Positions 24,601 through 38,040 of a DNA stretch of 48,704 bases are shown here, one piece after another. Source of the DNA: Candidatus Mailhella merdavium (GTDB taxonomy: Bacteria > Desulfobacterota > Desulfovibrionia > Desulfovibrionales > Desulfovibrionaceae). Under the pieces are notes generated by a model. It was not told the origin of the DNA, did no database searches, and saw only the letters and a list, made by a program, of their open reading frames with translations. The translations under genes were made by a program, and so were the position numbers. Numbering within the stretch: position 1 is the stretch's first letter; the number at the start of each line of letters is the position of its first letter. The DNA is taken from positions 1 through 48,704 of the forward strand of contig DWXS01000090.1 of NCBI GenBank assembly GCA_019119045.1. The letters are read 5' to 3'.

Positions 24601-25584
24601 TTAATCGTACTGAACCGCGCTGAACTGCATGAGACGAGTCCAGTTATGGTGCGATTCTATATAACGAAACGTTCCGGTTTTTGCTCTGATGGCGAGAGAA
24701 TGGGTAATAGCCCCGTTCCCGGTATACTGCACCCCGCGCAGGAAGTCTCCTCCGGAAATTCCGGTGGCGGCAAAAAATGCGTCGTCGGCGCGGATAATGC
24801 TTTCTACCGAAAGTATCTCGCGGATATCGACGCCGGCCCGCTCTATATTTTCTTTTTCCACATAGGACTGAGGATCCAGGCGACACAGCATCTGGCCGCC
24901 GACGCCCTTGATGGCGCAGGCCGCGATGACCCCTTCGGGAGTCCCCCCCGTGCCCATCATGACATCGACATCAGAGCGGGGGTCGGCAACCATCAGCGCC
25001 CCGGCGACGTCTCCGTCCGTATGAAGCTGAATCCTGGCCCCTGCGGCGCGTATTTCTTCGATAAGCTTCGCATGGCGCGGTTTATCCAGAACAAAGACAA
25101 CCAGATCGTTGATATCTTTGCCCAGAGCTTTTGCTACATGAGAGAGGTTGTCCTTTACGGGAGCGTCAATATCGATGACATCCCGTGCCTCGCGTCCGAC
25201 AACTATTTTCTGCATATAGAAGCTCGGGCCGGGGTTATACATGCAGCCCTTGCTGCATACGCCCACCACGGAAATGGCGTTGGGGCGACCGTTGGCCAGA
25301 AGTCTGGTTCCCTCCACAGGATCTACGGCAACATCGACTGCCGGGCCGTCTCCGTCGCCGACCTTTTCTCCGTTATACAGCATGGGCGCCTTGTCTTTTT
25401 CACCTTCTCCAATGATGACGATACCGTCCAGCCCAAGGCTGTTGAAGGAGAGCCGCATGGCATCGACAGCAGCACCGTCTCCCGCTTCCTTATCGCCTTT
25501 CCCCAGCCAGCGGGCTGCCGAAAGGGCTGCCGATTCTGTGACGCGAACCAGATCAAAGGCAAGATTTTTTTCCGGTGCTTGCAT
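24601..25584 (-). CDS. glpX: Fructose-1,6-bisphosphatase class II
   Basis: Metal-dependent gluconeogenic phosphatase of the GlpX family. The 327 residues include GEGEKDKAPMLYNGE (59-73) and DPVEGTRLLANG (88-99), the two metal/substrate-binding motifs, plus MMGTGGTPEGV further on. Family length is about 320-340. It acts in the same direction of carbon flow as PEP synthase and pyruvate carboxylase nearby, though it is not in their operon. A candidate promoter (25700-25728) and a leader hairpin (25650-25670) precede it. Confidence 0.95.
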   Translation of the reverse strand: MQAPEKNLAFDLVRVTESAALSAARWLGKGDKEAGDGAAVDAMRLSFNSLGLDGIVIIGEGEKDKAPMLYNGEKVGDGDGPAVDVAVDPVEGTRLLANGRPNAISVVGVCSKGCMYNPGPSFYMQKIVVGREARDVIDIDAPVKDNLSHVAKALGKDINDLVVFVLDKPRHAKLIEEIRAAGARIQLHTDGDVAGALMVADPRSDVDVMMGTGGTPEGVIAACAIKGVGGQMLCRLDPQSYVEKENIERAGVDIREILSVESIIRADDAFFAATGISGGDFLRGVQYTGNGAITHSLAIRAKTGTFRYIESHHNWTRLMQFSAVQYD

Positions 25585-25649
25585 GGCGACGCTCCAATTG
25601 ATGTCCGGATTTTTATGAATTCCGGGATATGTTGTGGGGAGAAAAACTC

Positions 25650-25670
25650 CATGACCTCACGGCGGTCATG
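25650..25670 (-). terminator. Hairpin with T-run in the glpX leader / smr tail
   Basis: CATGACC (25650-25656) and GGTCATG (25664-25670) pair perfectly over a 7-base loop. On the reverse strand GAGTTTTTCT follows. It is either the terminator of the smr gene, 125 bases past its stop, or, since a candidate promoter lies between smr and the hairpin, a leader element of glpX. Confidence 0.4.
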
Positions 25671-25699
25671 CCTCGGTTTCTATCAAAGTTGCGTCCGTC

Positions 25700-25728
25700 A
25701 CTATAGCCAAGCAATCATGGCTCTTCAA
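25700..25728 (-). promoter_or_regulatory. Candidate glpX promoter
   Basis: On the reverse strand, TTGAAG (25728-25723) and TATAGT (25705-25700) are spaced by exactly 17 bases, about 115 bases before the glpX ATG. It is a reasonable sigma70-type match (4 of 6 and 5 of 6). Confidence 0.45.
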
Positions 25729-25794
25729 GTGAAAAGCAACGGCTTTTTACCGGCAAGGACGAGACCGGGGACGAACTGGCCCTGATCCTGCCGC

Positions 25795-26871
25795 CTAAAT
25801 AAAGAGATCGGGATCCGCAGGAAGCGCGTCCCAATAGACTTTTCCTGAGTTTTTTCTGTATTTTCGGAGTAATACATATAATGCTCCTGTTCCGCCGTCT
25901 TCCCTGCGGGCAGTGCAGAAAGCCAGGACTATTCTTCGGAATGGCTCCTGTGTGAGCCAGTGGCGCATTTTGGCCCGGAGTACCGGGTTTCCGTCGGGGG
26001 AATTGAGTCCCCTGCCTGTTACGACGAGAGCTGTTCGTACACCTTTATAATATGCGTTGCGGAAAAATCCGACCAGATTGTGAAAGGCCTGTTCGCTGTT
26101 GAGGCCGTGAAGATCTATATGGGCCTCGGGACTGAGCTGCCCTGCCTGTAACTTTCCTACTGTCAGCAGATCAAGACCGACAACATGACCTTCCATAAAT
26201 TCATCAGTACCGCTCAGAGCAAATTCCACTTTTCCTTCCACAATATCCTGAAGCGGATTGGAAGGAGCGACATAGGGAGTTTCCGGCGACGCCGGATCGG
26301 GTGTCACCGCTCTGCCCTTGCCTTCGAGCGGGGTGATTCCCTTCATTGCGCTGAGAAAATCGCGTGTATCCTCTTCGTCATCTGATTGATGTCCGGAAGC
26401 GGTGAACACTGCTTGCGGAGGCTCTTTTTTTTCCGGCCGCGTTTTTTCTGTGTCGGCGGCGGAGCTTGAAGATGCAGAAAGAGTTTTCCTTTTCTGCCAG
26501 GTGTCGGCCATGTCGGCAAAGGGAAAGGATGCCTCGTCTGACGTTTCCGTCGGAAGAGCTTCGACAGAGCTGCTTTTCTTCTCTGTACCTGATATGCCGG
26601 GGGAGGAACTGGCTACGGTCTTCGTATCCTGATGCGGACGGCTGCCGGACGCGGCTTTGTGCTTTGACGAGGGCGAAGATTTCCGTCCTGCTTCGGAGGG
26701 GAGTTTTTCAACGCGACTCATGGCTGTCAGAAAAAGTTCCATATCTTCGTCCGCGGAGGTCTTCTTTTCTTTCCGTTCCTCACCAAGAGAGGCTCTGACG
26801 GCTTTTTTTCTGGCATCAGGATAGTTTGATGCTTTAAGGGAGGAAAAAGGATTATCGGAGTGTTTGCTCAT
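25795..26871 (-). CDS. Smr-domain protein (DUF27-type)
   Basis: Probable nucleic-acid-acting protein. The C-terminal Smr domain (about 251-340 of 358) has IDLHGLNSEQA, VVTGRGLNSPDG and DGGTGALYVLLRK, the DLHG and TGRG signatures seen in MutS2 C-termini and stand-alone Smr nucleases. The N-terminal half is low-complexity, rich in Ser, Lys and Glu, and lacks any MutS-like ATPase, so this is a stand-alone Smr. The ATG at 26871 was chosen because the preceding 18 codons overlap the end of cobO; the ribosome-binding site is poor, so coupling to cobO translation is likely. Ribosome rescue or mRNA cleavage at stalled ribosomes is a possible role from family knowledge only. Confidence 0.84.
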   Translation of the reverse strand: MSKHSDNPFSSLKASNYPDARKKAVRASLGEERKEKKTSADEDMELFLTAMSRVEKLPSEAGRKSSPSSKHKAASGSRPHQDTKTVASSSPGISGTEKKSSSVEALPTETSDEASFPFADMADTWQKRKTLSASSSSAADTEKTRPEKKEPPQAVFTASGHQSDDEEDTRDFLSAMKGITPLEGKGRAVTPDPASPETPYVAPSNPLQDIVEGKVEFALSGTDEFMEGHVVGLDLLTVGKLQAGQLSPEAHIDLHGLNSEQAFHNLVGFFRNAYYKGVRTALVVTGRGLNSPDGNPVLRAKMRHWLTQEPFRRIVLAFCTARREDGGTGALYVLLRKYRKNSGKVYWDALPADPDLFI

Positions 26872-26887
26872 GATTCGGAATCCCGAG

Positions 26888-27391
26888 TTAAAAATCGAGG
26901 CCTGGAACGGCTTTTTTTCCTTCATGCCATGGGTGCTTTACTTCTTTCATTTCTGTGATCAGATCTACGTCCTGTGTAAGATGAGGAGGAAAGCCGCGCC
27001 CCGAAAGAATGAAATGGGTATTACTTTTTTTTGATAATTCAAGTAATGCTTTAAGTTCTTCTTCTAAAACAAGCCCTTTCCCGAGAGCATAAAGAATTTC
27101 GTCAGCGACCAGAACGTCTACCTTCCCCATTTTGTCCCGGGTCCAGGCAAGCGCAAGACCGGCCGCTTCCCGATGTTCCGGGCGTTCTTCTTCCTTTCGG
27201 AAAAACCCTTTTCCTGCCGCTTTGAAATTGTCTCCAAGCAGCTCTTTAAGAAATATTTGTTCCCCAGCCTCGCCATCCTGCTTCATGAACTGGATAAAGG
27301 CAGCCTTCAGTCCTCTTCCCTTAGCGCGCATGATCTGGCCGAGGCAGGCAGAAGTTTTGCCTTTACCATCGCCGGTATATACATAAATCAC
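26888..27391 (-). CDS. cobO: Cob(I)alamin adenosyltransferase (CobO/BtuR type)
   Basis: Transfers the adenosyl group of ATP to cob(I)alamin or corrinoids to make adenosylcobalamin. The 167-residue product has the P-loop TGDGKGKTSACLG (6-18), DVLVADEILYAL and the C-terminal SGRGFPP, all characteristic of the CobA/CobO/BtuR class. It starts at GTG 27391 and overlaps the amrS stop by GTGA, so the two are translationally coupled. It is the second cobalamin-related gene in the window along with the TudS-CbiK fusion, but the two are not in one operon. Confidence 0.94.
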   Translation of the reverse strand: MIYVYTGDGKGKTSACLGQIMRAKGRGLKAAFIQFMKQDGEAGEQIFLKELLGDNFKAAGKGFFRKEEERPEHREAAGLALAWTRDKMGKVDVLVADEILYALGKGLVLEEELKALLELSKKSNTHFILSGRGFPPHLTQDVDLITEMKEVKHPWHEGKKAVPGLDF

Positions 27392-28500
27392 CTTGGTTCT
27401 CCCTGTGGTTCACGGGCTGTCGTTGTCTGCCATACCCCGGAAAGAGTGGCGCCGCAATGTGGACAAATGCCGTTAACATCCGGGGAAAGAATCTGATATG
27501 CCCTGCGACGTATGACGATTTCTCCGCAGACGGGGCAGCGCGTGTTTGTTTCCCGAAAAGGCGTGTTGCCCGTATATACATAACGGAGTCCGCATTTTTC
27601 GCCAGTTTCTCTGATTTTTTCCAGACATTCCGGGGAAGTCGGAGCTATGTCCAGCAGGGCGCGACGCGGAAAAAAGGCAGAGATATGCCACGGGGTGTCT
27701 GCGCCAAGATGTTTATGGATAAATCGTGCAATCCGCGCAGTTTCTTCGGGGGAATCATTAATGCCCGGTATGACCAGCGTTGTAATTTCCAGCCACCATC
27801 CGAGACGGCGCATAAGAATGAGGTTGTCAAGAACTCCGTGTAAGGCTGCGCCGCAGTACCTGCGATAGCTGTCATCGGAAAATGCCTTCAGATCTATGTT
27901 TGCGGCGTCAATCAGCGGCGCGAGGATTTCAAGGCATTTCGGACTCTGATATCCGTTGCTGACCAGCACCCGACCAAGCCCGGAGTGTCCGGCCTGCTCG
28001 GCACACGCGCACATGAGTTCGAAGAATATGGTCGGTTCGGTATAGGTGAAGGCGATGCTGGAACAATGTTCTTCTTTTGCGGCTCGGACGAGTTCTGTCG
28101 CTGTTATTGCCGGGCCTTTTCTGCAGAAAGCGTCTCGTTGTTCCAGATCGTCAGGAGCAGAATCATTTGCAGGAAGGCTGCGGCGTGTAAATAAAGCGGG
28201 GCGTGAAATATCGGCATTTTGACACCATGCGCAATCGAAATTGCAGCCCGGCGTTCCCAGTGAGAGCGTTCTGCTCCCGGGGAGGTAATGAAACAGCGGT
28301 TTTTTTTCTATGGGATCAACATGAACGGCAGCGGCATGCGTTTCGACAAGCGTGAATATTTCAGCTTGTCCGTTTATCCGCCGGCATCCGCGCACGCCGC
28401 AGAGACCCCACTCCCCGGGCAAGAGACGGCAGAAATGTCTGCATACCAGGCACTGGGCCCGTCCGTTCTTTCTTTCCCGCCAGAGGGATGCCCGCTTCAT
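27388..28500 (-). CDS. amrS: AmrS-type radical SAM enzyme (AmmeMemoRadiSam system)
   Basis: Radical S-adenosylmethionine protein related to pyruvate formate-lyase activase. The 370 residues carry an N-terminal Cys-rich segment (C17, C20, C24, C34) and the cluster motif CNFDCAWC (C86, C90, C93) with GTPGCNFDC context. The C-terminal region has two CxxC pairs (CPVCG and CPHCG), consistent with a small zinc-binding tail. The family is usually found beside Memo and AMMECR1 genes, with which it forms the AmmeMemoRadiSam trio; neither is in this window. It overlaps the upstream exported-protein gene by ATGA and cobO by GTGA. Substrate unknown. Confidence 0.87.
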   Translation of the reverse strand: MKRASLWRERKNGRAQCLVCRHFCRLLPGEWGLCGVRGCRRINGQAEIFTLVETHAAAVHVDPIEKKPLFHYLPGSRTLSLGTPGCNFDCAWCQNADISRPALFTRRSLPANDSAPDDLEQRDAFCRKGPAITATELVRAAKEEHCSSIAFTYTEPTIFFELMCACAEQAGHSGLGRVLVSNGYQSPKCLEILAPLIDAANIDLKAFSDDSYRRYCGAALHGVLDNLILMRRLGWWLEITTLVIPGINDSPEETARIARFIHKHLGADTPWHISAFFPRRALLDIAPTSPECLEKIRETGEKCGLRYVYTGNTPFRETNTRCPVCGEIVIRRRAYQILSPDVNGICPHCGATLSGVWQTTTAREPQGEPR

Positions 28501-28826
28501 TGATTGCTTCCATTCTGTAAGGACAGGGGAACAGGGTAGTTGCCGGAGTAGGGAAGTTTTATTTCTGGTGCGACGATGAGGGGAACATTCCCCGGCATAG
28601 TTGAAGAACTCTGGCTTTCATCCGGAGGGGTCGTTACGCCGGATACCCATTCGTTCCGTTCCGTATCATAGTATTGATAGATTCCGGACGACGAGGTTCC
28701 CATGACGATATCGGAATCCTGCGAAGGAGTTTTGCTCTCTTCTGCGGCTGAGGCTATGCCGGGAACAAGCAGGGCGACAAGAAGCAGATCCTGAAAGAAT
28801 GTGCAGGAAGAAAGTTTTTTTCGCAT
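28497..28826 (-). CDS. Small exported protein of unknown function
   Basis: A 109-residue protein with an N-terminal signal peptide: KK at 3-4, hydrophobic core about 14-25, probable cleavage after ASA at about 27. The mature part is short, polar and Pro/Ser-rich, with YQYYDTERNEWVSGV in the middle and a repetitive Pro-rich C-terminus. No family is recognised. Cys8 sits before the hydrophobic core, so it is not a lipobox. GGAGG lies upstream of the ATG at 28826. It is the first gene of the operon that continues with amrS, cobO and smr, and its stop overlaps the amrS start. A periplasmic location is inferred. Confidence 0.7.
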   Translation of the reverse strand: MRKKLSSCTFFQDLLLVALLVPGIASAAEESKTPSQDSDIVMGTSSSGIYQYYDTERNEWVSGVTTPPDESQSSSTMPGNVPLIVAPEIKLPYSGNYPVPLSLQNGSNQ

Positions 28827-28907
28827 TGGAGTCCTCCGTCCAGCTATTGGCAAAAGGTCGGGAAGCGTCTATTAATACATGAACCATAAATCAAGGAGTC
28901 AAGCTTC

Positions 28908-29966
28908 ATGAGTTCGTCCCGTTCTCAAGCATACACCGACGCCGGGGTCAATATCAATGCCGGTAATGAGCTGGTTTCCCGAATAAAATCGCTGGTGGCT
29001 TCCACCCGCATTCCTGGAGTTGTCTCAGATATCGGCGGCTTCGGCGGCTTGTTCCGGCCTGAGCTTGAAGGAATGAAAAGCCCTGTTCTTGTATCATCCA
29101 CTGATGGTGTGGGGACGAAACTGAAGCTCGCGTCCCTGTTTGACAAACATGATACCGTAGGTATCGATCTTGTGGCGATGAGCGTCAACGATATTCTGGT
29201 TCAAGGGGCGAAACCCTTATTTTTTCTTGATTATTTCGCAACCGGCGAATTGAATGTCGAACAGGCGGAATCCATAATCGGCGGTGTGGCTGAAGGCTGT
29301 CGACGCGGAGAATGCGCCCTGCTTGGCGGAGAAACAGCCGAAATGCCAGGTATGTACGCTTCCGGTGATTACGATTTGGCCGGTTTTTGCGTGGGAATTG
29401 CCGATATGGCTGATATTGTGGACGGATCGAAGGTTGCCGTTGGCGATGTCGTGATAGGTCTGGCCTCTTCGGGCGTTCATTCCAACGGATATACCCTGGT
29501 TCGCAAATTGTTTGAAGCAAGCGGCGCCACTGCAGACGACATATTCCCTGGAACAGATCGGAGCTTCCGGGACGTTTTGCTCGAGCCCACCATTATTTAT
29601 ACAAAAATTCTGGGAAAGCTGCTTCAGGGAATTAAGGCGAAGGGCATGGTTCATGTTACGGGCGGCGGATTTTATGACAATATTCCCCGTGTGCTTCCTG
29701 AAAAGGTGTCTGCAAAAATCACTTTTGGTTCGTGGGATATTCCTCCGGTATTCGAATGGCTGAAGGAACAGGGAAAGCTGAGCTGGCCGGAAATGATGCA
29801 GATATTTAATACAGGCATCGGATATATTATAATCGTAGACAGCGGCGATGCGGAAGAGGTATTGAAAAGAGCCCATGTGTTGAACAGCCGTGCCTGGAAA
29901 ATCGGGGAAATTGTTTCCCGTGAAGACCCGGCTTCGGAGCAGGTGGACGTTGTTTTTGAGGAATAA
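28908..29966 (+). CDS. purM: Phosphoribosylformylglycinamidine cyclo-ligase (AIR synthase)
   Basis: Fifth step of purine synthesis, making aminoimidazole ribotide from FGAM with ATP. The 352-residue product matches PurM: TDGVGTKLKLA near 63-73, GIDLVAMSVNDILVQGA, LLGGETAEMPGMY, and a C-terminal TGIGYIIIV region. AAGGAG precedes the ATG. No other purine gene is nearby. The downstream gap (29967-30111) contains long-range complementary segments. Confidence 0.96.
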   Translation: MSSSRSQAYTDAGVNINAGNELVSRIKSLVASTRIPGVVSDIGGFGGLFRPELEGMKSPVLVSSTDGVGTKLKLASLFDKHDTVGIDLVAMSVNDILVQGAKPLFFLDYFATGELNVEQAESIIGGVAEGCRRGECALLGGETAEMPGMYASGDYDLAGFCVGIADMADIVDGSKVAVGDVVIGLASSGVHSNGYTLVRKLFEASGATADDIFPGTDRSFRDVLLEPTIIYTKILGKLLQGIKAKGMVHVTGGGFYDNIPRVLPEKVSAKITFGSWDIPPVFEWLKEQGKLSWPEMMQIFNTGIGYIIIVDSGDAEEVLKRAHVLNSRAWKIGEIVSREDPASEQVDVVFEE

Positions 29967-29999
29967 GGCTGATCTGGAGCGCTGCTAATACGGCAAAAT

Positions 30000-30079
30000 G
30001 ACAGCCCCGTCTGCTTGTCGCATTCCTCATTATATTCGTATCTGAGGACAATGGGGCATGCCGGGAGCATGGGGCTGTC
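30000..30079 (+). terminator. Long-range hairpin between purM and the tudS-cbiK gene
   Basis: GACAGCCCC (30000-30008) pairs perfectly with GGGGCTGTC (30071-30079). Inside the loop, CCTCA and TGAGG can form a second stem. No T-run follows. It may be a folded terminator or leader. I find no cobalamin-riboswitch consensus. Confidence 0.35.
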
Positions 30080-30111
30080 CGTTGTCCTTGATTTGTCAGA
30101 GCGGTTGAATT

Positions 30112-31380
30112 GTGAAAGCACCTTTTTTGGTCAGCGCATGTCTGGCTGGCGAAGCCTGCCGTTATGATGGCGCAAGCAGACCCCATCCTGTTATCCGGGA
30201 ACTCGTCAGCCAGGGGGCTGCGATTCCTGTCTGCCCGGAATATCTCGGCTGCCTCGGCATCCCTCGTCCTGCCTGTGAAATCAGGGAGGATTGCGTTGTC
30301 GATGCAGAAGGAAAAGATCATACGCTGGGCTTTCGGGCGGGAGCGCAGCTTGCTTTGAATTTTGCCCAGGCACACGGCTGTCATGAGGCCATATTGAAAG
30401 CTCGTTCTCCGTCGTGCGGCTGCGGTTCCGTCTATGACGGTTCCTTTCGTCATGTTTTGCGTGAGGGCGACGGACTGTTCGCCGCATTGCTCAAGGAAAA
30501 AGGTGTCCGCATCTGGACTGAAGAAAATGCGCCTCTGGAAAAAATCAGAGCGGAAGCCGGTCATGCCGGATATGCGGAACAGAGGAGCAGGGCTGAACAC
30601 AAACGGGGTATTCTGCTTGTGGCGTACGGAGCCGGAAATCCGCAAAGCGCGGCAACACTCAGGCAGGTACAGCTTGTGGCGCAGAACCGTTTTCATCTGC
30701 CAGCACGATGGGCCTTTACTTCGGAAAGTCTGCGCGAACGCATTGCCGAAGCCCGCATGAAGTCGGATTCCGTCCTTAAGGCCTTGCGTCGTATGGCCTT
30801 TGAACGTTATGACGAAATTGCCGTGCAGTCGCTCCATCTGATTCCCGGGATGGAGTACGATGGCGTTCTGGAGGATGTCGAGCTGGCGCGCCGCGAACTC
30901 GGTTGTGATATCCGGGTAGGCCTGCCGTTGCTTTTTTCTCCCGCAGATGGAGAAAAGGCGGCGATTGCCCTTGTCAATCACGTCAACACATTCCGTACGG
31001 GACGGGAGCCTGTTGTCTGCATGGGGCACGGCAGCAGCAGACACGGGGCAACGGCCTTATACAGCATGCTTGCGGATCATGTGCGCAGATTTGACGATTC
31101 TGTCCATGTAGCCTGTATGAAGGGAGTTCTTCCTCTGGACGATACTCTGGCTCTTCTCAAGCCCGTCCGGGAGGCAAAAGAACTCTGGCTGATGCCTTTG
31201 CTTTCCGTGAGCGGCAGACACGCCAGGCATGATATGGCAGGCGGACATGGGCAGTCATGGCGGAGCAGAATTGAAGAGGCCGGTTTTCATTGTCGTACCG
31301 ATGTGCGGGGGCTTGCTGACGCGGCTTCGTTCGTAGAACTGTGGATGGAACGACTGGCCGATGTGTTGCGTTCTTTTTGA
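30112..31380 (+). CDS. TudS (DUF523) - CbiK fusion: desulfidase-like domain plus sirohydrochlorin cobaltochelatase
   Basis: A single 422-residue polypeptide with two clear families. Residues 1 to about 140 are DUF523/TudS, a [4Fe-4S] thiouracil-desulfidase family: SACLAGEACRYDG (C10), PVCPE (C41) and ARSPSCG (C102) supply the three expected cluster cysteines. Residues about 165-420 align with class II chelatase CbiK: AVQSLHLIPGMEYDG, VVCMGHGSSRHG and LMPLLSVSGRHARHDMAGG. By comparison with remembered Salmonella CbiK, catalytic E248, H306 and H370 are all retained. CbiK inserts cobalt into sirohydrochlorin for the anaerobic B12 pathway. GTG at 30112 is the start. No frameshift signal separates the halves; the linker is about 25 residues. 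How the two activities relate is unknown. Confidence 0.85.
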   Translation: MKAPFLVSACLAGEACRYDGASRPHPVIRELVSQGAAIPVCPEYLGCLGIPRPACEIREDCVVDAEGKDHTLGFRAGAQLALNFAQAHGCHEAILKARSPSCGCGSVYDGSFRHVLREGDGLFAALLKEKGVRIWTEENAPLEKIRAEAGHAGYAEQRSRAEHKRGILLVAYGAGNPQSAATLRQVQLVAQNRFHLPARWAFTSESLRERIAEARMKSDSVLKALRRMAFERYDEIAVQSLHLIPGMEYDGVLEDVELARRELGCDIRVGLPLLFSPADGEKAAIALVNHVNTFRTGREPVVCMGHGSSRHGATALYSMLADHVRRFDDSVHVACMKGVLPLDDTLALLKPVREAKELWLMPLLSVSGRHARHDMAGGHGQSWRSRIEEAGFHCRTDVRGLADAASFVELWMERLADVLRSF

Positions 31381-31393
31381 TGCGGCCGCATCA
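31378..31393. repeat. 16-bp perfect palindrome at the end of the tudS-cbiK gene
   Basis: TGATGCGGCCGCATCA is a perfect 16-bp palindrome with no loop, beginning at the stop codon and entering the 45-base gap before the aminotransferase gene. It may be a dimer-binding site or chance. A 7-bp-arm RNA hairpin is also possible. Confidence 0.35.
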
Positions 31394-31425
31394 TAAGGTA
31401 TATCGAGACTGAAGGAGTTTTGTTC

Positions 31426-32616
31426 ATGAATCTTGTTTCGGCGCAAATGGCAAAGAGTCTTGCGGGCGGTTCGATGATCCGTCGCATGTTCGAGGCTGGC
31501 AATGAACTTAAAAAGAAATTTGGAGAAGATGCCGTCTGCGATTTCAGTCTCGGAAATCCCGATCTTGCCCCTCCCGTACAGGTATCGGAGGAGTTTCGCT
31601 CTCTGGCCGTCAAATCGCGTGAGCCGGCCAGCCTCGGGTACATGTCCAATGCCGGATTCCCCTGGGCTCTGGATAAGCTGGCGGCATGGCTCGGAGAACA
31701 GCAGAAAGTTGAACTGACCAGAAATGAAGTCATGTTGAGCTGTGGTGCGGCCGGGGCTCTTAATGCCTTTTTCCATACTGTGCTGGAGCCGGGGGATGAG
31801 GTTCTCGCCATTGCTCCGTATTTTGTGGAGTATGGATTTTATGTTGCCAACCATGGCGGAGTGTTGAAAACAGTTCCCTGCCGAAAAGATGATTTCGGTC
31901 CGGACATGGATGCCGTAGCGGCCGCAATTACCCCCAAAACACGTGCTTTGATTGTCAATTCGCCGAATAACCCGTCCGGAGCGATTTACAGTATCGAGGA
32001 TATGCGCAAGCTCGCGGCAATTCTGGAAGAGGGGGGGCAGAAGCACGGTCGTCCCATTTATCTTATTTCTGATGAGCCGTATCGCTTTCTGGCTTATGAT
32101 GGCTGTGAAGTGCCGGCAGTCCTTCCTCTTTCTCCTTATGCCGTTGTGGTGAGTTCGTTTTCCAAAAATTACGGACTGGCAGGAGAGCGCGTGGGCTATG
32201 TGGCTATTTCGCCGCGTCTGGAAGGACGGGAAACGCTCATGGCCGGACTTATTCTCTCCAATCGCACGCTGGGCTATGTGAATCCGCCTGTGGTCGGTCA
32301 GTATCTGATGGCCGCCGCCCTTGGAACTTCCACCGACGAAGCTCTTGCCATTTATACAAAGCGGCGGAATATGCTGGCGGATATCCTGACGGAAGCCGGA
32401 TATGAATTCACGATGCCCAAAGGTACGTTCTACTTTTTTCCGAAAGCTCCGGGTGGGGGCGATCTGGCCTTTGTAGAACGTCTGAAAGAACAGCTTGTGC
32501 TTGCCGTGCCGGGATCCGGCTTTGGCGGGCCGGGATATTTCCGTCTTTCCTTTGCCGTACCTGATGCGGTAATACTCCGTTCTCGAGAAGGCTTCATCAA
32601 AGCTCTCAAGAGTTAA
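31426..32616 (+). CDS. Class I/II PLP-dependent aminotransferase
   Basis: Fold-type I aminotransferase of the aspartate/alanine aminotransferase group. The 396 residues show FSLGNPDLAPP near 40-50, PNNPSGAIYS with the aspartate/alanine-type pattern, ISDEPYRFLAYDG, and SSFSKNYGLAGERVGY holding the Schiff-base lysine. A strong AAGGAG precedes ATG 31426; a TTG two codons upstream is less likely. The substrate cannot be assigned by eye. It is the last gene before the promoter of the yceD-rpmF operon, so it probably ends the purM-side transcription unit. Confidence 0.89.
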   Translation: MNLVSAQMAKSLAGGSMIRRMFEAGNELKKKFGEDAVCDFSLGNPDLAPPVQVSEEFRSLAVKSREPASLGYMSNAGFPWALDKLAAWLGEQQKVELTRNEVMLSCGAAGALNAFFHTVLEPGDEVLAIAPYFVEYGFYVANHGGVLKTVPCRKDDFGPDMDAVAAAITPKTRALIVNSPNNPSGAIYSIEDMRKLAAILEEGGQKHGRPIYLISDEPYRFLAYDGCEVPAVLPLSPYAVVVSSFSKNYGLAGERVGYVAISPRLEGRETLMAGLILSNRTLGYVNPPVVGQYLMAAALGTSTDEALAIYTKRRNMLADILTEAGYEFTMPKGTFYFFPKAPGGGDLAFVERLKEQLVLAVPGSGFGGPGYFRLSFAVPDAVILRSREGFIKALKS

Positions 32617-32646
32617 CCTTAATTTATGGATGATCAAGTAATTTTC

Positions 32647-32675
32647 TTGACATCATGAAAATGTATCTATAGATT
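32647..32675 (+). promoter_or_regulatory. Sigma70-type promoter for the yceD-rpmF-plsX-fab operon
   Basis: TTGACA (32647-32652) and TAGATT (32670-32675) are separated by exactly 17 bases, about 55 bases before the yceD start. The perfect -35 and ideal spacing make it the best promoter in the window, and it heads a very long co-directional gene run. Confidence 0.65.
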
Positions 32676-32730
32676 TTCTCGTTCTTTAAGTTTTCTTCAG
32701 TCAAAAGGCCGAAGATAACGAGGAGTCGGC

Positions 32731-33294
32731 ATGGCGGAACTGCATGTGGCATTGAACGAGATTCCCTCCGACGGGATGTCTCTGGTTGTCGACGACCAGA
32801 CTCTCTGGAGCGACCCTATGCGCGAATTCGGAATGAAATTCCGCATAGTCCGCCCGCTGCGGGCAGAAGTCTTTTTGCTTCCGCAGGCAGGGGGCTGTCT
32901 GGTGAGAGGGCATCTTTCCGGAGAACTTGTTGTGCCTTGTGACCGTTGTGCAGAAGATGCCGGCGTCGTCATAGACTGCTCGTTCGACGAGTTCGAGTCT
33001 CCTGTTGATGAACAGGAGGACAACAGTGGCGACGCGGAGAGCGAGAGCTTTGTTTTTCCTGAATCCGACGCCATTTTTTTTGAACATGGCGTTGCGGTTC
33101 TGGATTTGGGGAAACTGCTGTGGGAAGAACTGTCCCTTGTCATGCCGATCAAGCCTTTGTGCAGGCCTGACTGCAAGGGGGTCTGTTCTTCCTGCGGTGC
33201 GAACCTGAACAATGGCCCTTGCGCTTGCGGCGGACAGGAAGGCGATCCCCGTCTTGCTCCGCTAAAATATCTCAAGATAAAAACCAAGGGTTAA
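32731..33294 (+). CDS. yceD: YceD/DUF177 protein
   Basis: A 187-residue protein of the YceD (DUF177) family, which in other bacteria supports 23S rRNA accumulation and is almost always encoded next to rpmF. Conserved points are VPCDRCAE in the middle and the C-terminal CRPDCKGVCSSCGANLN, a Cys-rich motif typical of the family's bacterial and plastid members, then KYLKIK at the end. AGGAG precedes the ATG at 32731. Leads the operon with rpmF only 22 bases downstream. Confidence 0.88.
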   Translation: MAELHVALNEIPSDGMSLVVDDQTLWSDPMREFGMKFRIVRPLRAEVFLLPQAGGCLVRGHLSGELVVPCDRCAEDAGVVIDCSFDEFESPVDEQEDNSGDAESESFVFPESDAIFFEHGVAVLDLGKLLWEELSLVMPIKPLCRPDCKGVCSSCGANLNNGPCACGGQEGDPRLAPLKYLKIKTKG

Positions 33295-33316
33295 GCCCTG
33301 CTTCAAGGAGACTGAC

Positions 33317-33499
33317 ATGGCTGTTCAGCAAAACAAGAAATCCCGTTCCAGAAAGGGAATGCGTCGTTCTCATGATCGCGTAACCAAGCCCACCGTGATT
33401 TATTGCTCCTGTGGCGCTCCCACCACGCCGCACACTGTTTGCCCCTCCTGCGGTCAGTACAGAGGCCGTCAGATAGAAGCCGCCGCCGACGAGCAGTAG
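33317..33499 (+). CDS. rpmF: 50S ribosomal protein L32
   Basis: A 60-residue ribosomal protein with the standard N-terminus MAVQQNKKSRSRKGMRRSHD. The zinc knuckle reads YCSCGAPTTPHTVCPSCG: the first half is CxC instead of the usual CxxC, and the second half is CxxC. The gene sits between yceD and plsX, the classic conserved order. AAGGAG precedes the start. The next gene starts two bases after its stop. Confidence 0.96.
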   Translation: MAVQQNKKSRSRKGMRRSHDRVTKPTVIYCSCGAPTTPHTVCPSCGQYRGRQIEAAADEQ

Positions 33500-33501
33500 G
33501 G

Positions 33502-34548
33502 ATGATGAACAGGTCTGTCATCGCCATTGATGCCATGGGAGGAGACTTCGGTCCCTCCGTCGTGGTTCCCGGCGCTTTACAGGCAGCCCGCGAATGTGGA
33601 GCCAAAGTACTTCTTGTTGGTGTGGAAAGCGCGGTTCGGGATGCCCTGGCCGCGCTTCCCGCTACGGAGCGGGACGAAGAATTGTTTGAAATCGTTCCTG
33701 CTTCGCAAGTGGTGGAAATGAGGGAAAAGCCTTCGGAGATTCTTCGCACCAAGAAAGATTCATCCATTCAGGTTGCATGCCGTCTGGTTAAGCAGGGAAA
33801 AGCAGACGCTATCGTCAGCGCCGGTCATTCCGGAGCGGCGGTTGCCTGCGGCATGTTTATTCTCGGGCGTATCCCCGGGGTGGAGCGTCCCGCTCTGGCC
33901 ACCATACTGCCTACAGAGAAAAAGCCGGTGCTGCTGCTTGATGTTGGGGCGAATGTTGAATGTCGACCTCATCATATTTTCCAGTTTGCGCTGATGGGGG
34001 CAACCTTCGCTCAGGATATTCTCGGTTATGAGAATCCCCGTGTCGGTATTCTGAGCATCGGCGAGGAGGAAGGAAAGGGCAATTCCCTGGTAAAAAGCAG
34101 TTATGAACTGCTTAAATTGACTCAGGACATCAATTTTCTCGGAAACGTCGAGGGACGAGATCTCTTTACAGGGAATGTTGACGTTGTTGTTTGCGACGGT
34201 TTTGTAGGAAATGTCGCACTGAAGTTGAGCGAGGGGCTAGGTTCTTCCCTGACGCATGTCCTGAAGCGTGAACTGCTCAATTCCGGTCTGCTCCCGAAAA
34301 TCGGTACGTTTCTTGCGAAAAAGGCTTTCAAAAGATTTGCGAAAGTCGTTGATTATGCGGAATATGGCGGTGCCCCTCTGCTGGGATTGCAGGGGGTGGC
34401 CATTGTCTGTCATGGCGCCTCTAATGTGAAGGCCCTGACAAGTGCAACCGCCATGGCGCACGCTTATGTGACAAAGGGCACTCATGAGCGACTGGTTAAA
34501 GCCATCAGCGCCAACGAAGAATTGACCCGTTATGCCCGTTCCGTGTGA
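33502..34548 (+). CDS. plsX: Phosphate acyltransferase PlsX
   Basis: Peripheral membrane enzyme that converts acyl-ACP to acyl-phosphate for phospholipid synthesis. The 348-residue product shows IAIDAMGGDFGP at the N-terminus, SAGHSGAAVACG and DVGANVECRPHH, all typical. ATG 33502 (tandem ATG at 33505) was chosen because the upstream extension is translated rpmF sequence in another frame. It is followed after 6 bases by fabH, the usual partner. Confidence 0.95.
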   Translation: MMNRSVIAIDAMGGDFGPSVVVPGALQAARECGAKVLLVGVESAVRDALAALPATERDEELFEIVPASQVVEMREKPSEILRTKKDSSIQVACRLVKQGKADAIVSAGHSGAAVACGMFILGRIPGVERPALATILPTEKKPVLLLDVGANVECRPHHIFQFALMGATFAQDILGYENPRVGILSIGEEEGKGNSLVKSSYELLKLTQDINFLGNVEGRDLFTGNVDVVVCDGFVGNVALKLSEGLGSSLTHVLKRELLNSGLLPKIGTFLAKKAFKRFAKVVDYAEYGGAPLLGLQGVAIVCHGASNVKALTSATAMAHAYVTKGTHERLVKAISANEELTRYARSV

Positions 34549-34554
34549 GCTTGT

Positions 34555-35562
34555 ATGGCGAACTCCTGTCATATCTGCGGCTTGGGAAGTTATGTTCCCG
34601 ATAAAATTCTGACCAATCACGACCTCGAAAAACTGGTGGATACGTCGGACGAATGGATTCTGTCCCGAACCGGTATCCGGCAGCGTCATATTCTTGAAAG
34701 TGGGGCCAATGCGTCAGACGCGGCCATGGAGGCCGCCCATGCTGCTCTTGCAGACGCGGGGGTTTCACCTGAAGAGTTGACGCATATTTTTGTAGCTACC
34801 TGCTCCCCTGATTATTTTTGTCCCAGTACGGCATGCCTTGTTGCCGGAAGGCTCGGTCTTTCCGCCAAAGGCGACGGGCAGGGGGCGCATGTGATGTGCA
34901 TGGATTTCAACGCCGCATGTTCCGGATTTTTATATGGCCTTGAACTTGCGCGCTCCGTGCTGGCTCTGCGGCCCGACGGCGTTGTCCTGCTTATCGGTGC
35001 AGAAGCGTTGAGTCGACGTATTGACTTTTCCGACCGCAGTACCTGCATTTTGTTCGGCGATGGGGCGGGGGCCGTCGTTTTACGCGGCTCATCCGCTGGA
35101 AGTCTGTGGGGGGTTCAGGACTGCTCCTGCTGCTCTGACGGCTCGCTTCACAACCTCATTGTGATGGGCGGCGGCTCCGCCATGGAAGTGAAGAAGGGAG
35201 ATATGCTCCCGGACGACTTTTTTCTGACAATGCAGGGAAGGGAAGTCTTTCGACATGCCGTGCGGAGTATGGCTGCGGAAAGTCGGGCCATGCTCGAACG
35301 TCACGGGATGACTGTCGACGATATCGATCTATTCATTGCTCATCAGGCAAATCTGCGTATTATCGAAGCTGTCGGAAGCAGGCTCGGCATTGATGAGAGT
35401 AAAGTTTTCGTCAATGTTCAGGATTATGCAAATACTTCGGCGGCAACGCTTCCTCTGGCTCTTGATGATGCTCGTACCCAGGGGCGTCTGAAGCCTGGTA
35501 TGAAGGTCTTGTTGTCGACATTCGGGGGCGGTATCACCTGGGGAGCCGCATTGCTGGCATGA
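34555..35562 (+). CDS. fabH: 3-oxoacyl-ACP synthase III
   Basis: Condenses acetyl-CoA with malonyl-ACP to begin fatty-acid synthesis. The 335-residue product has the catalytic triad: C122 in NAACSGF, H263 in IAHQAN and N293 in YANTSAA. Start TSDEWILSRTGIRQRH is characteristic. It is close to plsX (6 bases). An extra Cys-rich segment, CSCCSDGSLHN near 190-200, is not part of a known site. Confidence 0.95.
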   Translation: MANSCHICGLGSYVPDKILTNHDLEKLVDTSDEWILSRTGIRQRHILESGANASDAAMEAAHAALADAGVSPEELTHIFVATCSPDYFCPSTACLVAGRLGLSAKGDGQGAHVMCMDFNAACSGFLYGLELARSVLALRPDGVVLLIGAEALSRRIDFSDRSTCILFGDGAGAVVLRGSSAGSLWGVQDCSCCSDGSLHNLIVMGGGSAMEVKKGDMLPDDFFLTMQGREVFRHAVRSMAAESRAMLERHGMTVDDIDLFIAHQANLRIIEAVGSRLGIDESKVFVNVQDYANTSAATLPLALDDARTQGRLKPGMKVLLSTFGGGITWGAALLA

Positions 35563-35626
35563 ATACGCACTCTGCCATTGATATTTGTTTTTTTCAGCCG
35601 TAATATTTTTCCGTGAGGCAGACAAT

Positions 35627-36370
35627 ATGAGTGAGCTTCTTTCCACGGCCTTGGTTACCGGCGGCTCTCGTGGTATTGGTCGTGCTGTGGCCCGTACTCT
35701 TGCGGATGCAGGTTATCAGGTATTCCTGACCTATATCAGTAAACCTGAAGAGGCGGAGCAGACAGTACGGGATATCACGGAAGCCGGCGGTCTTGCCCGC
35801 GCCTTCAAATTGGATGTCGGCGATTCCGACTCTGTTGCCGCGCTTTTTCGCGATGAGATCCGGGATAAGGTGGATCTTGCTGTACTTGTCAATAATGCAG
35901 GTATCACGAAAGATGGGCTCATGCTCAGAATGAAGGACGATGATTTTGACAAAGTTCTTGCAATCAACCTGAGAGGAGCTTTTCTTTGTCTGCGGGAAGC
36001 CGCCAAAATCATGACCAGGCAGCGCCATGGAAGAATTATCAATATTTCCTCTGTAGTCGGACAAATGGGAAATGCCGGCCAAATCAATTACAGCGCTGCA
36101 AAGGCGGGATTGATCGGCATGACCAAGTCGGCTGCGAAGGAACTTGCGCCGCGTTCTGTTACTGTTAATGCTGTTGCTCCGGGCTTCATTGAGACGGATA
36201 TGACAGCTGCGCTTTCCGAAGAAGCCCGGGACGCCTATGCCAAAGCAATTCCGCTGGGGCGTCTGGGATCGGCACAGGACGTTGCGGATGCCGTGGCCTT
36301 TTTGGCCTCGGACAAAGCGTCGTATATTACCGGACAGGTACTGGCCGTTAACGGCGGCCTTTACTGCTAA
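35627..36370 (+). CDS. fabG: 3-oxoacyl-ACP reductase
   Basis: NADPH-dependent short-chain reductase of the fatty-acid elongation cycle. The 247-residue protein has the [10 protein letters not shown] nucleotide-binding motif near 11-20, the NNAG motif, the ISS serine, and YSAAKAG with the catalytic Tyr and Lys. ATG 35627 was chosen on GTGAGG upstream; an earlier in-frame start reads into the intergenic region. It lies between fabH and acpP. Confidence 0.95.
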
Positions 36371-36399
36371 CCTCTCTAACACTGGCCTTTGGAGGAATC

Positions 36400-36633
36400 A
36401 TGTCTGTTGAAGAAAAAATCAAACAGATCATCAAGGATCAGCTTGGCGTATCCGAAGAAGAAGTAAAGCCGGAAGCTTCTTTTGTGGAAGATCTCGGTGC
36501 CGACTCTCTTGACCTTACGGAACTTATCATGGCTATGGAAGAAGAGTTCGGTGTTGAAATTGCCGATGAGGATGCCCAGAAGATTCTCAAGGTCAAAGAC
36601 GCCATCAGCTATATCGAAAGCAAGCAAAAGTAA
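36400..36633 (+). CDS. acpP: Acyl carrier protein
   Basis: A 77-residue acidic carrier of growing acyl chains. The phosphopantetheine attachment serine is S36 in [17 protein letters not shown] lies upstream of the ATG. It is followed by a 159-base gap with a short hairpin before fabF, the longest gap inside this operon. Confidence 0.97.
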
Positions 36634-36634
36634 G

Positions 36635-36656
36635 ACGGGGCACGGCTGTACCCCGT
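36635..36656 (+). terminator. Short GC hairpin after acpP
   Basis: ACGGGG (36635-36640) pairs with CCCCGT (36651-36656) over a 10-base loop, directly after the acpP stop, and is followed only by TTCG. It might shape acpP mRNA ends or partly reduce fabF expression relative to acpP. Confidence 0.35.
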
Positions 36657-36792
36657 TTCGCGGGCGACCTGCATCCCGAGAAGAATCTGCTTCCGCAGCT
36701 TCTCCTGTATGGTCGTCCGTTTTTTTATGGCGGCACGCCCTGTTCCAGGGCGAGCCTCCGTCCTTACCGTCCATTGCGAGCAAGGAGCAGAT

Positions 36793-38040
36793 ATGGAACG
36801 CAGACGTGTCGTCATCACGGGCATTTCCGCCATTACCCCTTTGGGTCTTGATGTTGCAAGCAGCTGGGATGCTCTGTTGGCAGGCAAGTCCGGTATTGAC
36901 CGAATCACACTTTTTGATTCTACCGGATATGACACCCAGATTGCCGGCGAGGTAAAAAATTTTCATCCGGAGGACGTCATCCCTGCCAAGGTTTGCAGGC
37001 GGATGGATCGTTTCGTCCAGTTTGCTGTCTGCGGTGCAGAGCAGCTGATGAAGGATTCAGGATACCGTGTGGATGAAAACAATGCCGAACAAACCGGAGT
37101 TATTCTCGGTGTCGGACTTGGCGGTCTGCATACCATTGAAGTCTTTCATTCAAAACTCATGGAAGCCGGCCCTTCGAGAATTTCTCCCTTTTTCATTCCC
37201 ATGCTGATTTCGAACATGGCTCCGGGGCAGGTAGCGATAAACACCGGCGCAAAAGGGCCGAATATGGTCTTGACCAGCGCATGTGCTTCTTCGTTGCATG
37301 CCATAGGTCATGCCTATTCCGAAATTCTTCTCGGCCGCTGTGATGCGGTGATTACCGGCGGGATGGAGGCAACCATTACCCCGATGGGTATTTCCGGCTT
37401 TACGTCCATGAAGGCCCTGTGTACCCAGTATGACGATACTCCACAGAAAGCCTCCCGTCCCTTTGATCTCACCAGAGCAGGCTTTGTCATGGGAGAAGGC
37501 GCAGCCATGTTGCTGCTCGAGAGCCTTGATTCCGCTAAGGCCCGAGGCGCAAAAATCTATGCTGAAATCGTCGGCTTCGGGGCCTCTGATGACGCCTATC
37601 ATATGGTTGCGCCTCTGGAATCCGGAGCCGGAGCGGCATCGGCAATGCGTAGAGCTTTGAAGGATGCCGGTGTTTCTCCGGAAAAAATCAATCATATCAG
37701 TGCGCATGGCACATCCACTCATGCCAATGACGCGGGAGAAACCCGTGCGATCAAGACCGTATTTGGCGACCATGCCTACGATATAGCCATTTGCGCGAGC
37801 AAGTCTCAGATCGGACATATGCTCGGTGCGGCCGGAGGGGCTGCAAGCGTGTTTACCGTTCTTGCGCTGCAAAGCGGTATTGTGCCGGGAACCATCAATC
37901 TGGAAACTCCCGATCCCGAGTGCGATCTCAATTATATGAGTTCCGGTCCTCAAAAGCTCGATCCGGAATACGCTATGGTCAATGCGTTCGGTTTCGGCGG
38001 CACAAACGCAAGCGTTGTGTATAAACGCTTTGAAGATTGA
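36793..38040 (+). CDS. fabF: 3-oxoacyl-ACP synthase II
   Basis: Elongating ketoacyl synthase. The 415-residue product starts MERRRVVITGISAITPLG and has the catalytic C164 in TSACASSLH, and histidines in SAHGTSTHAND and KSQIGHMLGAAGG. AAGGAG precedes ATG 36793; longer in-frame starts were discarded as upstream spacer. It is followed after 27 bases by glyA. Confidence 0.95.
   Translation: MERRRVVITGISAITPLGLDVASSWDALLAGKSGIDRITLFDSTGYDTQIAGEVKNFHPEDVIPAKVCRRMDRFVQFAVCGAEQLMKDSGYRVDENNAEQTGVILGVGLGGLHTIEVFHSKLMEAGPSRISPFFIPMLISNMAPGQVAINTGAKGPNMVLTSACASSLHAIGHAYSEILLGRCDAVITGGMEATITPMGISGFTSMKALCTQYDDTPQKASRPFDLTRAGFVMGEGAAMLLLESLDSAKARGAKIYAEIVGFGASDDAYHMVAPLESGAGAASAMRRALKDAGVSPEKINHISAHGTSTHANDAGETRAIKTVFGDHAYDIAICASKSQIGHMLGAAGGAASVFTVLALQSGIVPGTINLETPDPECDLNYMSSGPQKLDPEYAMVNAFGFGGTNASVVYKRFED

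Follow-up and report, generated by a model that had tools for sequence, protein, structure and literature searches.

Enzymes of the TudS (DUF523) family prefer 4-thio-UMP as substrate (PMC10611767), and the TudS 4-thio-UMP desulfidases that have been studied (PDB 6z92-6z96; P. putida PP_5158) are stand-alone proteins. TudS architectures divide into 58.9% stand-alone and 40.1% TudS-DUF1722 (PMC11417400), which leaves about 1% for all others. The TudS-DUF1722 protein RudS is a tRNA 4-thiouridine desulfidase (PMC11417400). The CbiK chelatases of Salmonella (PDB 1qgo) and D. vulgaris (CbiKP, PDB 2xvx) are likewise single-domain proteins. The Salmonella enzyme obtains its cobalt straight from the cytosol and needs no accessory proteins (PMC10206600), and it can also insert iron, with a preference for cobalt (PMC4063343).

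The 48,704-nucleotide stretch of Candidatus Mailhella merdavium DNA analysed here (the window) encodes a single polypeptide in which a TudS domain is followed by CbiK. The TudS half retains the full domain and fold of the 4-thio-UMP desulfidases and shares with them the three cluster cysteines, a glutamate, two serines, R17 and Y18, but a chelatase lies C-terminal to it. As in RudS, TudS is joined to a second domain; in contrast to RudS, there is no DUF1722, and TudS is instead joined to a metal chelatase whose own active site is complete. The CbiK half is 36% identical to CbiKP over 258 residues and 28% identical to Salmonella CbiK over 253 residues, with the full fold and the glutamate and two histidines of both, whereas the preceding TudS domain and the loss of the usual separate CbiK start set it apart from these single-domain enzymes. 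A TudS-CbiK fusion is unreported in the open literature searched, a scope outside which most subscription journals and bioRxiv fall, and the available portion of PMC4921024 contains no TudS or CbiK case. Apparently this is an unreported combination of two well-known domains, so far seen in one small clade within Mailhella and its kin, which are gut bacteria.

The frame at 30112-31380 on the plus strand is open for 422 codons from its GTG and is a real fusion of a complete TudS/DUF523 domain and a complete CbiK domain (Table 1), with a product of about 46 kDa as estimated from its length. In Pfam, PF04463 (2-thiouracil desulfurase) matches residues 6-138 over profile positions 2-140 of 141 (E 1.7e-40; 138.8 bits against a curated cut-off of 34.7), and PF06180 (CbiK) matches residues 166-419 over positions 2-261 of 262 (E 4.6e-41; 141.3 bits against 26.2), which places each half in its family. 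DUF1722 is absent among the three families that match in Pfam at E up to 1, so that the protein falls outside RudS. The predicted structure of the two-domain protein is a confident model (mean pLDDT 90.8, pTM 0.86), each half of which matches its own solved relatives. The pLDDT falls to 60 at linker residues 151-160, and the pTM value suggests that the TudS and CbiK domains would adopt a defined arrangement.

Table 1 Features of the TudS-CbiK locus in the window.
Feature	Position	Strand	Remarks
Corrinoid adenosyltransferase BtuR/CobO	26888..27391	-	PF02572 E 9.1e-45; B12 gene 2.7 kb upstream
purM (AIR synthase)	28908..29966	+	Pfam AIRS/AIRS_C; conserved upstream neighbour (synteny)
TudS-CbiK fusion gene	30112..31380	+	422 aa, GTG start, TGA stop
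TudS/DUF523 domain	30127..30525	+	residues 6-138; cluster cysteines C10, C41, C102
Linker	30526..30600	+	residues 139-163; no ATG/GTG/TTG; poorly conserved
CbiK domain	30601..31377	+	residues 164-422; E248, H306, H370
PLP-dependent aminotransferase, PRK06836 type	31426..32616	+	NF005305 521.7 bits, cut-off 376; conserved downstream neighbour

The active sites of both halves appear intact in alignment. E248, H306 and H370 fall on E94, H154 and H216 of D. vulgaris CbiKP and on E89, H145 and H207 of Salmonella CbiK, which we take to be the key residues of the latter enzyme, and their presence also assigns this half to CbiK. H145 and H207 are named in PMC4063343. On the TudS side, C10, C41 and C102 align with C10, C43 and C104 of TudS_A, and E43, S99, S101, R17, Y18, P100 and Y108 correspond to the catalytic and docking residues listed for TudS_A in PMC10611767; the three cluster cysteines together with the proposed catalytic E43, S99 and S101 assign this half to TudS. 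The preliminary description of the window had named the same three cysteines and the same three chelatase residues, all of them correctly by alignment, and its claim of one polypeptide with both domains complete is borne out by the open frame and the near-full-length Pfam matches.

The fusion recurs in relatives. Candidatus Mailhella excrementigallinarum (genome G017, locus L046) encodes an uninterrupted TudS-CbiK fusion that is 76% identical to the window protein and keeps the GTG-AAA start. A protein search found at least five fused clusters among the matches listed (P0001-P0005, with 28, 4, 69, 3 and 21 member sequences), of which P0001 belongs with the window protein (99%) and P0003 resembles the fusion in L046. 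Because this search scored the 7997 candidates sharing most words and listed the best 120 of 125 hits, with a length filter that favours multi-domain proteins, it may have overlooked rare fusions from distant phyla. The five fused rows (the window, L046, P0002, P0004 and P0005, with P0001 and P0003 omitted as near-copies) form one branch with support 99/99 in a tree of 30 CbiK domains, which is rooted at its midpoint and carries a program warning of long branches. For the window compared with L046, the pN/pS ratios are 0.25 for TudS, 0.19 for CbiK and 0.60 for the linker, values that are rough because dS is near 1.4, and the linkers are 33% identical over 21 codons.

An assembly or frameshift artefact was considered, as the window genome is a fragmented draft of 91 contigs. 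The uninterrupted fusion in the independent G017 genome and in the five protein clusters, together with the single clade formed by the fused proteins tested, makes such an origin so improbable that it is rejected. The preliminary description had seen no sign of a frameshift, and rightly so. It had also held that an assembly join, or homologues that always occur as separate genes, would speak against its reading; G017 is fused too, as are P0001-P0005. The domain-architecture search it proposed thus places fused DUF523 and CbiK in at least five clusters, those tested belonging to one clade, and agrees with its view that CbiK is normally free-standing in that CbiK is mostly unjoined to TudS elsewhere.

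The order purM-tudS-cbiK-aminotransferase is kept in the genus Mailhella, and 16 of the 19 genus genomes were found to contain the locus; the three in which it was not found (G004, G008, G012) are all less than 90% complete. Two of the 19 have TudS fused to CbiK (G000, which is the window's genome, and G017), eight have a fusion of CbiK with the aminotransferase (G006, G007, G009, G010, G013, G014, G016, G018), and six have three separate genes (G001, G002, G003, G005, G011, G015). Twelve of the 14 unfused tudS and cbiK pairs share a four-base ATGA overlap, with the ATG directly before the CbiK domain, and eight of these 12 genomes also have CbiK fused to the aminotransferase. In the other two pairs (G001, G003) the tudS TAG stop lies ten bases before the cbiK ATG. 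Genes that overlap by ATGA are read in different frames, so that merging them required not only the loss of the tudS stop but also a shift of frame. Judging from the relatives, separate tudS and cbiK genes with an ATGA overlap are the likely ancestral state and the fusion likely replaced this overlap, which would make it a lineage-restricted merger of two translationally coupled neighbouring genes. Four looser relatives (L055, L060, L062, L067) have tudS and cbiK adjoining with no ATGA overlap. In the window as a whole, ATGA sites occur between open frames of at least 80 codons in eight cases, a crude count over frames unfiltered for real genes.

A separate CbiK start inside the window fusion was considered and rejected. 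ATG, GTG and TTG are all absent downstream of TudS as far as residue 169, and the first GTG after TudS is codon 170, inside the CbiK domain; the rarer starts CTG, ATC and ATT are present in the junction. The L046 fusion has a TTG at codon 144, the start of the linker, so that a separate CbiK start is possible there.

How far the adjacency of tudS and cbiK extends was assessed in 59 genomes: the 19 from the genus, another 16 from the family and another 24 from the order. Matches to both halves occur in 31 of the 40 genomes outside the genus, many of them on different contigs and some of the weak TudS matches possibly being RudS, and adjoining matches on the same strand occur in none of the 40. 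Outside the genus the two matches come closest in G034, where they lie on opposite strands with 1.5 kb between them, and the aminotransferase and purM are not found beside tudS in the non-genus genomes. Among the 80 of 84 named loci kept for neighbourhood comparison, tudS lies in the flank at 18, namely 13 genus genomes and five near kin (L055, L058, L060, L062, L067); the other named loci have no tudS in their flanks, which extend to 6 kb at most and in many cases less. As the adjacency is confined to the genus and its near kin, the cluster was likely assembled there. BtuR is beside the locus in L046 and L123 as well; of the 18 named loci where tudS adjoins cbiK, the remaining 16 showed no BtuR in their flanks, some of which are short. 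Desulfovibrio cbiK has tlyA-mutL or a sigma-54 regulator as neighbours in the few loci with nameable neighbours: three of nine open frames from five Desulfovibrio loci matched NCBIfam (sigma-54 regulator, TlyA and MutL) and six matched nothing, the frames having been picked by length, so that some may not be genes.

Each domain also has other fusion partners. The CbiK-aminotransferase fusion of sister Mailhella resembles that of the window in the kind of locus, in the CbiK involved and in being a merger of adjacent genes; it differs in that the other side of CbiK is joined, with tudS separate and overlapping by ATGA. The eight frames (L047-L050, L052, L054, L012 of G007 and L013 of G018) run for 727-865 codons through CbiK and the downstream PRK06836-type aminotransferase, with an internal aminotransferase start possible. 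CbiK and aminotransferase domains are paired in at least ten protein clusters (P0020, P0022-24, P0026-29, P0031, P0033). Among the best 120 of 125 hits, TudS domains are joined to at least 14 other kinds of partner domain, including PF03853 (25 rows) and PF00293 (10 rows) among the matches listed, many TudS-fusion rows being single sequences. Further partners in P0064-P0117 are presumably HAD, PfkB, PP-loop, shikimate dehydrogenase, Cu-oxidase_4 and NUDIX, names that we assign in part from the accessions, and three TudS fusions (P0065, P0081, P0105) were confirmed with Pfam. An aminotransferase match is present in 56 of the 59 genomes searched, the window's genome included. A cobalamin-type CobD assignment for the downstream aminotransferase was tried and found unsupported: among the 25 of 51 NCBIfam models listed, the one above its cut-off is PRK06836, which is a general aminotransferase name.

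No TudS other than the fusion was found in the window genome. The one other CbiK there (L002, G000:C90:24385-25137) has, as judged by eye, a hydrophobic N-terminal leader like a signal peptide, which would suit a periplasmic CbiK such as D. vulgaris CbiKP. This pairing suggests that the fusion probably serves the cell as its cytosolic cobaltochelatase and as its sole TudS desulfidase, a prediction made from sequence. With NF047852, the NCBIfam sirohydrochlorin cobaltochelatase equivalog, the CbiK half reaches 109.9 bits where the cut-off is 400, a level also missed by the leader-bearing paralogue (189.8) and by the Desulfovibrio CbiK in L082 (153.4), and the metal could therefore be cobalt or iron. 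CbiD, CbiF, CbiH, CbiET and a uroporphyrinogen-III methyltransferase-HemD protein are encoded in the genome, and BtuR in the window; CbiL is not among the five PF00590 matches of this 88% complete draft, so that the B12 pathway is only partly shown. A divergent ThiI-domain protein (L133, G000:C64:45608-46027), with no NCBIfam match at E 1e-20, is a possible 4-thiouridine synthase and the only candidate source of 4-thiouridine found. We know of no metabolite common to the desulfidase and cobaltochelatase pathways.

The fusion is seen next to its likely unfused ancestral state, with the ATGA overlap, and next to another fusion of this chelatase. The locus can therefore serve as a natural test, on a small scale, of whether fused genes are functionally linked or are only translationally coupled neighbours that have merged. 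Probably the neighbouring genes merged into a two-in-one predicted enzyme whose halves would work separately. The TudS half would use a [4Fe-4S] cluster to remove sulfur from 4-thio-UMP, and the CbiK half, as the only CbiK found with no signal-like leader, would insert cobalt into sirohydrochlorin in the anaerobic B12 pathway. The gain from fusion, if any, would be fixed 1:1 production, continuing the translational coupling that the ATGA overlap would provide, and no channelling between the two sites would be expected. The preliminary description had instead proposed a link between sulfur or Fe-S chemistry and cobalt loading. If the halves did interact, Fe-S sulfur chemistry would be connected with the metal loading of B12, but the restriction of the adjacency to Mailhella and near kin, with no case in the 40 genomes outside the genus, and the joining of CbiK to an aminotransferase in 8 of the 19 genus genomes and of TudS to at least 14 other partner kinds, speak against such a link; a chemical link of desulfuration to cobalt insertion is doubtful. 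For the same reasons it is unlikely that TudS and CbiK are partners whose older complex the fusion fixes, with the [4Fe-4S] domain assisting the chelatase, for instance by keeping sulfide off the cobalt site or by acting on a sulfur-bearing tetrapyrrole. The ATGA overlap in 12 of the 14 unfused genus genomes, the pTM of the two-domain model and the sulfate reducers among the Desulfovibrionaceae (PMC9174804) are consistent with a partnership, which keeps some probability because short-distance gene pairs are enriched in complex subunits (30.4% versus 6.8% in E. coli and 45.2% versus 5.6% in H. volcanii; PMC10666635). These points are opposed by the lack of tudS beside cbiK on one strand outside the genus, by the few named Desulfovibrio loci with cbiK next to tlyA-mutL or a sigma-54 regulator, by the aminotransferase fusions of the same CbiK in eight genomes, by the many unrelated domains fused to TudS among the matches listed, and by the Salmonella enzyme, which needs no accessory protein (PMC10206600). 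Slightly less likely is a true functional unit of TudS and CbiK in Mailhella itself, present as ATGA-coupled subunits in most species and as a single covalent protein in the fused clade, in which the Fe-S desulfidase domain would control or protect cobalt loading of the tetrapyrrole in a sulfide-rich cell.

The separate working of two active halves is challenged from two further directions. The CbiK half might mainly insert iron to make siroheme for sulfite reductase rather than serve B12; iron insertion is within the capacity of Salmonella CbiK, which can rescue a cysG mutant (PMC4063343, PMC10206600), and the shortfall against NF047852 and the lack of CbiL among the PF00590 matches point the same way. 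This is nevertheless improbable in view of the several early-cobalt B12 genes of the genome, BtuR nearby and the preference of Salmonella CbiK for cobalt (PMC4063343). Slightly more improbable is a neutral read-through in which a decaying domain became attached to a functional one, leaving a single activity. Fusions on either side of CbiK do look permissive, but both halves retain every residue checked, the pN/pS ratios of the two domains are low (0.25 and 0.19), and the genome was found to hold no other TudS and no other CbiK free of a signal-like leader.

Rfam gave no match at gathering score over 25000-37000. A consensus scan of 29900-31500 found no promoter on the plus strand and five terminator-like sites (1.4 in shuffles), four of them inside the fusion gene. 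The window CbiK and the downstream aminotransferase lie in a common frame (31378-31425) separated by a single in-frame stop (TGA, 31378-31380), read-through of which would give a three-domain protein. A 590-codon open frame in L082 (5026-6798) has CbiK at its end as its only match, and the approximately 325 residues before CbiK match no family; perhaps it is a mere extended open frame. A second purM paralogue (47-49% identity, E <1e-60) is present in all eight genomes with the CbiK-aminotransferase fusion and in no others of the 59 searched.
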